Origin: Candidatus Magasanikiibacteriota bacterium
Lineage (GTDB): Bacteria > Patescibacteriota > Patescibacteriia > Magasanikbacterales > 2-02-FULL-50-9b
DNA length: 46,559 bases
Direction of reading: 5' to 3'
Assembly: GCA_903893485.1 (NCBI GenBank)
Contig: CAITMK010000001.1
Span: 1-46,559 of the forward strand
Below the pieces are notes generated by a model. It was not told where the DNA came from, ran no database searches, and saw nothing but the letters and a program-made list of their open reading frames with translations. The position numbers were made by a program, and so were the translations under genes. Shown here in pieces: positions 5,103-40,897 of this stretch (its first letter is position 1; each line of letters starts with the position of its first letter).

Positions 5103-5231
5103 AATGTTTGCGCTACTGATTCAATCCCGTTGGCCTGTAGTGATACGGACCAGGGATGAGCAGCGCGTAGACCAAAATATACCAGAAAAAAATAAGCCTG
5201 GCAAGTATTTTTTCTATGGTTTTACGGTGAC

Positions 5232-5346
5232 TCTCTCGGGGGTCATCCGCAGGCGCGGCGGCCCGGAGTCTTGGCCGCGCCAAGACGAGCCGCGTCGAGG
5301 CCGAGCGCAAAATCCCGGCGAGGATTTTGACGCGACCCCCAAGAGA
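5232..5346. repeat. Structured intergenic repeat, copy 1
   Basis: Outer inverted repeat GGGGGTC(5238-5244)/GACCCCC(5334-5340) extended by TCTCT/AGAGA; three internal stems; 60-nt core at 5249-5308 aligns without gaps to copy 2 at 9090-9149. Confidence 0.85.
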
Positions 5347-9058: not shown

Positions 9059-9202
9059 AGTTTGTTTTTGTTTTGAGAAGGGGTCATCCGCAGGCATTGC
9101 GGGCCGGTGCCGCGCACCATGCGCGGCGAGCAATGCCGAGGCCGAGCGCAAAATCCCGCCGGGGATTTTGACGCGACCCCTGAACAAAATAAAAACAAAC
9201 TT
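9059..9202. repeat. Structured intergenic repeat, copy 2
   Basis: GGGGTC(9080-9085)/GACCCC(9175-9180) with extended A/T-rich flanking inverted repeat (AGTTTGTTTTTGTTTTG.../...CAAAATAAAAACAAACT); core 9090-9149 folds like copy 1. Confidence 0.85.
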
Positions 9203-39151: not shown

Positions 39152-39231
39152 AAACACGGTTACTCTGCGCACGGAAACATTCCGAGCCGCGCGGCAGATG
39201 AGAGAATAAATTTGAAAAGGAATGTAGCGGT

Positions 39232-39260
39232 AGTTTAAAGGAAATTGGCTGAGCTGTCAA
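39232..39260 (-). promoter_or_regulatory. str operon (rpsL) promoter
   Basis: Minus strand TTGACA(39255-39260)-N17-TAAACT(39232-39237). Confidence 0.75.
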
Positions 39261-39264
39261 GTGA

Positions 39265-39293
39265 TTGACAATGTCCTAGAGGTGTGTAAAAAT
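39265..39293 (+). promoter_or_regulatory. Divergent promoter for a structured RNA
   Basis: TTGACA(39265-39270), 16-17-bp spacer, TAAAAAT(39287-39293). Confidence 0.6.
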
Positions 39294-39299
39294 ATGCCC

Positions 39300-39569
39300 A
39301 AACAGCGATGGGCGCTTTTGTTACAAGTGGTCGGTAGTTACCGATGTGCGGGATCCCTTTTCGGGAAATGCAACTCTGACCCTCCCCTCTCTTCCTATTG
39401 CGTTGGACGAGAGGCATTCAAATAGGAGTTGCACAGCGGGCCGAAGGTCCAGGAGCTTGCGACGAGGTGGAGATTCCTCCCCGTCCCCACACAGTCCAGG
39501 CTCCTGGACCCGAGGCAACTCACAATCAACCCCACACCCAAGCCGAACGAACTGTTCGGCTATTTTTTT
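39300..39569 (+). ncRNA. Candidate ~270-nt structured RNA of unknown class
   Basis: Promoter at 39265-39293, terminator at 39541-39569, no supported ORF; stems TCGGT-AGTT-ACCGA, TGCAACTC/GAGTTGCA, GGTCCAGGAGC/GCTCCTGGACC. Confidence 0.6.
39541..39569 (+). terminator. Intrinsic terminator of the structured RNA
   Basis: AGCCGAAC-GAACT-GTTCGGCTATTTTTTT. Confidence 0.88.
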
Positions 39570-39570
39570 G

Positions 39571-39629
39571 AAAAAAAAATCGGCAGTAGTACGGACCCGT
39601 GAAGTTCTGGGGTACGTATACTACTGCCG
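39571..39629 (-). terminator. Intrinsic terminator of the 383-aa orphan gene
   Basis: Minus strand CGGCAGTAGTATACGTACCCC...GGGTCCGTACTACTGCCGATTTTTTTTT; a second hairpin ATGCAGG/CCTGCAT lies at 39630-39648. Confidence 0.85.
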
Positions 39630-39655
39630 ATGCAGGGCTTACCTGCATGCGACAA

Positions 39656-40807
39656 TCACTGAAGCGGCAGATCGGGCACTTGCCACGTGCGACCGACGAG
39701 CGAGACGCTCTTCAACATGTCGCCCGCCACCGGTTCAGCAGCCGAGGGAATACGCTTGATTTCGGTATCCTGCCCCGCCGCAATGACATGCAACGCGCTG
39801 TCTGCTTTGATAATCGCGTCGGCCTCGCTGATCTTGGTCGATGCCCGGCTGCCGCCCTTCACCACGAGGTCAAGGCCGTCAGACAGATACGCCGTGAGCG
39901 CCTCAAAAAGCATCCCCCAAGCCGCCTCGCTCGGAGATGCGAAGAAGGTCTTCAGCGCCTCAAGGTACGCATCCCGAAGCGTCGAGCTCCGAAACACGCA
40001 GATATTCTCAGCAGAAAGCCAGCCGATGCCTTCGCTGAGAAGCCAGCCGATGCGCGGATCATCGACCTGCCGCACGAACTGGCCGAGCAGCAAATTCGCG
40101 GGCGACGACACCTCGACCGAGCCGATCGCGTGCGAAGGCGACTGCCGAAGCGCGGCAAGCACTTGATCGCCCCGGAATTCCGGATGGCAGATCATGCTGC
40201 AGCCCAGCAGATCCGGCAGGTTGATCGAGTACGGCGCGCGCGCAATGTCCATGACGAGGTTCTGCTCGGCAACCGGAAGCGCCGGGCAGACGATCTCCTT
40301 CACGTACGTGTTGGTATCAGAACTGGCGTTCGCCCGAAGCAAACGGTCCACGATCGCCGCCGATTCCTCGCTGACGCCGAGCATCATGAGAAAATCGGGG
40401 GCGAGAACGCGACCGGCCATCTTCTTGTAGTTCGCGCCGATCTGCGCCGCCGGAAACGTGAGCGCATGCGGACCAGCCTCAAGGTCAAGCATCTGGGCGA
40501 ATTCAGGACTCGCCGTAATGCCATGCATCTTGCCCTGCGAGACCGCCAGAAACTCCGCGAACGACGGCGCCGTGTCGCGACGAGCTCCGACGAGAATGCT
40601 CTCGCGAAGCAGGAGACGCCCTTCGGGCAAACGCAGAATTCCCTGAAGCGGCTCATTGGTCATGAGCCACGAGTCGGAAATAATCATCCGATCGTAGAGC
40701 AGCGCGTTGAGAACAATGCCGCGCCAAACCCGATCAACGGATTGGCCCGGAATGAGGTTGTCAAAGAGTACGCCGAACGCATCAATGAGAGTAACGGGAC
40801 GAAACAT
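39656..40807 (-). CDS. GC-rich orphan protein of unknown function (383 aa)
   Basis: Full-length ORF with SD (AGGTGA), promoter and terminator; composition clearly GC-richer than flanks; family not recognised. Confidence 0.8.
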   Translation of the reverse strand: MFRPVTLIDAFGVLFDNLIPGQSVDRVWRGIVLNALLYDRMIISDSWLMTNEPLQGILRLPEGRLLLRESILVGARRDTAPSFAEFLAVSQGKMHGITASPEFAQMLDLEAGPHALTFPAAQIGANYKKMAGRVLAPDFLMMLGVSEESAAIVDRLLRANASSDTNTYVKEIVCPALPVAEQNLVMDIARAPYSINLPDLLGCSMICHPEFRGDQVLAALRQSPSHAIGSVEVSSPANLLLGQFVRQVDDPRIGWLLSEGIGWLSAENICVFRSSTLRDAYLEALKTFFASPSEAAWGMLFEALTAYLSDGLDLVVKGGSRASTKISEADAIIKADSALHVIAAGQDTEIKRIPSAAEPVAGDMLKSVSLVGRTWQVPDLPLQ

Positions 40808-40847
40808 GAGTCACCTGCCTTTATTCGCGTCAGTGCGAATTGTACAG

Positions 40848-40876
40848 ATACTAGCAATCAGTACACAAATTGTCAA
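40848..40876 (-). promoter_or_regulatory. Promoter of the 383-aa orphan gene
   Basis: Minus strand TTGACA(40871-40876)-N17-TAGTAT(40848-40853). Confidence 0.75.
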
Positions 40877-40897
40877 CCCTCTCTTATACAACCCAAA

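Follow-up and report, generated by a model that had tools for sequence, protein, structure and literature searches.

Intergenic trans-acting sRNAs with C-rich (UCCC- or CCUCC-type) loops have their own promoter, an intrinsic terminator and stable stem-loops, and they expose a C-rich stretch that can base-pair with Shine-Dalgarno sequences. A unit of ~270 nt within the 46,559-nt window (the whole stretch of DNA analysed here) resembles them in all of these features, but differs in being a predicted transcript with no detected conservation and with target pairing not beyond what its composition gives. Riboswitches and attenuators likewise are structured RNAs with overlapping complementary segments, and 6S RNA (RF00013) is, like the unit, stand-alone, ~200-270 nt long and stably folded. 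The orphans termed 'Unnamed IGR' in PMC8632094 (three representatives at most) are also long, G+C-rich intergenic stretches with predicted structure and too few members for a consensus, the unit differing from them in having one representative only; high G+C is the property by which structured-RNA intergenic regions were selected there (PMC8632094). The literature searched contained no sRNA study for Patescibacteria. Judging from its sequence, we put the probability that the unit is a species-specific, stand-alone orphan sRNA gene at roughly 0.5.

Transcription signals and predicted fold

The initial annotation had described a G+C-rich non-coding unit of ~270 nt with a promoter and a terminator, and this description held, with signals at 39265-39293 and 39541-39569. 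The features of the unit are as follows.

39265-39293, + strand: sigma-70-type promoter, TTGACA / 17 nt / AAAAAT with TG before the second hexamer (10 of 12 consensus matches)
39300-39569, + strand: predicted non-coding transcript of ~270 nt between promoter and terminator (z -5.62; single copy)
39330-39345, + strand: small 5' hairpin GUCGGU-AGUU-ACCGAU (pairing probabilities 0.75-1.0)
39354-39366, + strand: small hairpin UCCC-UUUUC-GGGA (pairing probability 0.86-0.99)
39369-39433, + strand: domain 1, stem 39369-39377/39425-39433 around the hairpin 39386-39391/39409-39414 plus 39393-39395/39405-39407 (probabilities mostly 0.96-1.0)
39440-39516, + strand: domain 2, long hairpin 39446-39463/39494-39510 topped by a short apical stem, the basal pairs being 39440-39442/39514-39516 (probabilities 0.93-1.0)
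39541-39569, + strand: intrinsic terminator, a 9-bp stem (39541-39561) followed by the T-run ATTTTTTT

Both the promoter and the terminator were called by consensus matches only, and the 1.6-kb region has three promoter-like sites where 0.6 would be expected. On the - strand, rpsL has such a site at 39260-39232, back to back with that of the unit. Transcription of the putative sRNA gene would start divergently to the rpsL-rpsG-fusA operon and stop at its own terminator. The G+C content of the unit's segment is ~0.55, compared with 0.458 genome-wide. By these sequence signals the unit has the marks of an intergenic sRNA gene, namely its own promoter, a terminator, a fold above shuffles and no recognisable protein.

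A short protein-coding gene at this place is very improbable. The unit overlaps several ORFs (54-137 codons), as G+C-rich DNA would give, but none of the ORFs in and around 39300-39569 has a Pfam match above the cut-off, the ATG at 39294 precedes the expected transcription start (~39300), and the longer + strand ORFs extend beyond the terminator.

The + strand of 39300-39569 folds with a minimum free energy (MFE) of -112.8 kcal/mol, compared with a mean of -84.5 kcal/mol for 200 dinucleotide shuffles, none of which was as stable; the z value of -5.62 compares with -4.57 for the - strand. MFE and centroid structures coincide, giving a single dominant structure, and the transcript would accordingly be expected as one rigid arrangement of two stable hairpin domains and C-rich single strands. 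The fold signal comes mostly from 39366-39522 (z -5.6), with the region of domain 1 (39366-39436) at z -4.5 and that of domain 2 (39437-39522) at z -5.0, while the 5' 69 nt (39300-39368) carry none (z +0.3). All helix arms proposed earlier were found where they had been placed. For most of its length the proposed stem 39369-39376/39426-39433 pairs with a probability of ~0.99. CCTCTC/GAGAGG is likewise predicted to form a helix (39386-39391/39409-39414, probability ~0.99), its supposed role in a pseudoknot being dealt with below. The unpaired C-rich strand of domain 1 is 39378-39385, GACCCUCC. The core of domain 2 consists of 11 perfect G+C-rich pairs (39446-39456/39500-39510, inverted repeat I18), extended to 39463/39494; the earlier pairing of GGTCCAG with CCTGGAC thus captured a real long hairpin, with its arms one base out of register.

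Strong intergenic folding is common in this 0.95-Mb genome, which counts against the orphan sRNA gene: 41 of 169 segments drawn from 79 long non-ORF gaps have z < -4, and the unit's segment ranks ~14th of the 169. Several of the higher-ranking segments are tRNA neighbourhoods and repeats.

Alternative helices and pseudoknot

Two mutually exclusive sets of helices and an H-type pseudoknot had been taken as signs of a switching RNA of riboswitch or attenuator type. The alternative arms do exist, and loop length would allow the pseudoknot, but the energies speak otherwise. Forcing the helix 39426-39432/39515-39521 costs 8.3 kcal/mol over the MFE and has an ensemble probability of ~0, and the stem 39369-39376/39426-39433 would also form earlier during transcription than this alternative. 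The 39494/39509 hairpin has zero ensemble probability, and imposing its start raises the energy by 11.4 kcal/mol; as proposed, GTCCAGG (39494-39500) and CCTGGAC (39503-39509) leave a 2-nt loop, which is sterically impossible and permits six pairs at most. Forcing 39395-39399/39421-39425 within the nested fold costs 11.2 kcal/mol.

Such alternatives are also expected by chance. Mutually exclusive helices occurred in equal or greater number in 9% of shuffles for helices of at least 7 bp and in 31% for those of at least 6 bp. With total helix lengths of at least 11, 12 and 13 bp, complementarity for an H-type pseudoknot, counted as crossing helix pairs spanning no more than 60 nt, was present in 49%, 22% and 7% of shuffles and in 59%, 26% and 11% of ordinary 241-nt stretches of this sequence, respectively. 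When the chosen 49-nt piece was shuffled alone the figure fell to 2.3%, a value for a piece picked after the fact. Domain 1 in its nested form has an energy of -25.3 kcal/mol and is presumably at least as stable as the pseudoknotted form even without a pseudoknot penalty, as roughly estimated by hand from nearest-neighbour stacking.

Because the alternatives are energetically remote and the competing helices and pseudoknot arms stand at chance level, neither the switch nor the pseudoknot is supported. Moreover, the unit's terminator faces a convergent gene and hence, in contrast to riboswitches and attenuators, the unit has no downstream gene in cis to control. We regard a switching RNA as highly improbable, and caution that competing 6-7-bp helices and pseudoknot arms are to be expected by chance in G+C-rich stretches of 250 nt.

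Relatives, known classes and the rpsL slot

The claim of a new structured RNA class found no backing, since no orthologous locus appeared in DNA or covariance searches. The unit is single-copy in its genome, and a DNA search revealed no relative in 95 near genomes or in 381 genomes of the class. A 34-nt match in one genome (G048, 88% identity) has unrelated surroundings and none of the structure and was taken as chance, and two further short class-wide matches (27 and 31 nt) look like chance too. Across 114 relatives' genomes and 86 genomes of the order, the covariance model R1 matched nothing apart from the unit and its hairpin read on the reverse strand; built from a single sequence at 0.59 bits per position, it could miss very diverged relatives. 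Phages, plasmids and viral contigs contained no credible relative, a Methylophaga plasmid match (E 0.8) being taken as chance. The arm pattern of the long hairpin, GGTCCAGGAGC-gap-GCTCCTGGACC, had eight matches in the viral and genome collections, all with unrelated flanks, and those in viruses resemble terminator-type hairpins. Without relatives there is no covariation test and no sign of selection, and this lack of any relative in the collections searched counts against the orphan sRNA gene as well.

Comparison with Rfam, both at the gathering threshold and at E up to 10, gave no relevant match in the region; what appeared at E up to 10 was eukaryotic microRNA and other noise arising from the long hairpin. 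The earlier statement that RNase P, tmRNA and SRP signatures are lacking is borne out, as the corresponding models match nothing here. RNase P RNA (RF00010) and tmRNA (RF00023) are encoded elsewhere in the genome (G000), at C12:52563-52962 (125.5 bits) and C14:93499-93898 (125.1 bits), respectively. The 6S (RF00013) and SRP (RF00169, RF01854) models matched neither this genome nor the 6-11 close relatives searched per model, whereas control genomes were positive; in this genome and its close relatives, 6S and SRP RNA are either strongly diverged or lost.

With these RNAs unaccounted for, the unit could conceivably be a divergent 6S or SRP RNA, which we consider extremely unlikely. The region matches neither kind of model even at E up to 10. 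A housekeeping RNA would be expected in congeners, yet the DNA and covariance searches were negative in four congeners and in another family member. The two-domain fold differs from the long 6S-type rod with its central bubble, and the SRP domain IV motif, sought with a permissive pattern, turned up nowhere in the genome, the unit's region included.

The slot occupied by the unit (window 39173-40897) lies between rpsL and an M50-peptidase gene, both here and in G003, where these two genes are kept and an unrelated ORF stands between them. The RNA is also absent from the slot in G001, which has a different hairpin and different ORFs, in G004, where an ORF lies directly there, and in G005, which has another gene. 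Three congeners and one further family member thus lack the RNA at this position and have unrelated DNA instead; the positional comparison does not include the fourth congener (G002), which had no rpsL match. Across the family (L004, L006, L055, L058) the slot holds differing ORFs, mostly G+C-rich, often with a terminator facing rpsL. In G001 (L004) the DNA upstream of rpsL carries a different structured insert with inner hairpins, closed by TGGGCGCTTCCG / CGGAAGCGCCCA, which loosely resembles the dispersed repeat described below. From the sequences, the slot looks like a site where G+C-rich DNA is rapidly acquired and lost.

This apparent turnover bears on the possibility that the unit is non-functional passing cargo, a relic of unrelated G+C-rich DNA whose hairpins and promoter are meaningless. 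This is a possible reading, which we take seriously without favouring it. In its favour, the slots of G001, G003, G004 and G005 contain other DNA, none of it resembling the RNA. The neighbouring gene is itself a 383-aa ORFan (39656-40807, - strand) in a stretch of 55-58% G+C, and searches for it in 37 genomes, Pfam, PHROGs, PADLOC, phages and viral contigs were negative. Against it, the promoter and the terminator are good and correctly spaced, and together with the fold z they exceed what a random relic needs.

The genome also contains a dispersed structured repeat of ~100 nt, in which the conserved single-stranded segments CATCCGCAGGC, GAGGCCGAGCGC and GACGCG join covarying stems in a three-way junction. 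Its copies (loci L090, L095, L110 and L112 among them) are listed below.

5226-5345 and 9075-9180: copies in the window
C3:33220-33340 (- strand) and C3:34005-34140: copies elsewhere in the genome
C4:60395-60530 (- strand), C4:61610-61750 and C4:62930-63060 (- strand): copies elsewhere in the genome
C12:59380-59500 and C12:84300-84420: copies elsewhere in the genome

Compensatory changes were observed at 19 of 30 predicted pairs across nine copies. Several copies have an outer stem prolonged by complementary arms peculiar to each copy, resembling a terminator hairpin with the core as its loop. There was no Rfam match to the repeat within the window, and loose pattern matches occurred in a few viral contigs (L071, L122-L125). 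Kinship between the repeat and the unit was rejected, as neither BLAST nor covariance models gave a match. The repeat is a better RNA- or DNA-element candidate than the unit: its covariation shows how selected structure looks in this genome, and the unit offers nothing comparable.

Another element was observed 3' of some tRNA genes. Beyond a terminator hairpin lies a ~100-nt stretch with strong folding that terminates with a copy of the 3' end of the tRNA in question; for Glu, Lys and Leu, the copies show 0-2 mismatches over 18 nt. The arrangement resembles that of a small element that has inserted at the 3' ends of tRNA genes.

C3:38691-38870: element after tRNA-Glu
C11:19611-19798: element after tRNA-Lys
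C13:20821-21008: element after tRNA-Leu
C14:107041-107232: related sequence after tRNA-Asp

Possible action and significance

If functional, the RNA would most likely act as an ordinary trans-acting regulatory sRNA presenting the CCUCC-type loop 39378-39385, which may pair with the Shine-Dalgarno regions of mRNAs and thereby block translation. The organism does use Shine-Dalgarno sites, GGAGG preceding 40 of 794 ORFs against 6.2 expected. In computed duplexes the unpaired segment 39377-39392 can pair with several such sites, the best (-25.7 kcal/mol) being predicted at C12:83608-84174, a 188-aa ORF without a Pfam match. However, shuffled versions of the segment paired equally well with ORF starts overall in 22% of trials, so that the predicted pairing is no better than that of segment shuffles. 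Masking of Shine-Dalgarno sites would be the likeliest mechanism for a functional RNA on these models, and is in itself improbable.

We favour the orphan sRNA gene because the promoter and terminator are well placed and spaced, the z value is -5.62 with one dominant fold, the G+C content stands out (~0.55 vs 0.458), the ORFs lack a family match, and RNase P and tmRNA are located elsewhere in the genome. The fuller proposal, in which a functional, lineage-restricted structured non-coding RNA of no known class arrived recently in a reduced genome, entering the rpsL-M50 slot along with the ORFan gene, and acts through its C-rich loop or by protein binding, seems to us rather unlikely. If expressed, the unit would add one more orphan sRNA, from Patescibacteria, and would illustrate how RNA genes can come and go at one fixed position of the chromosome.
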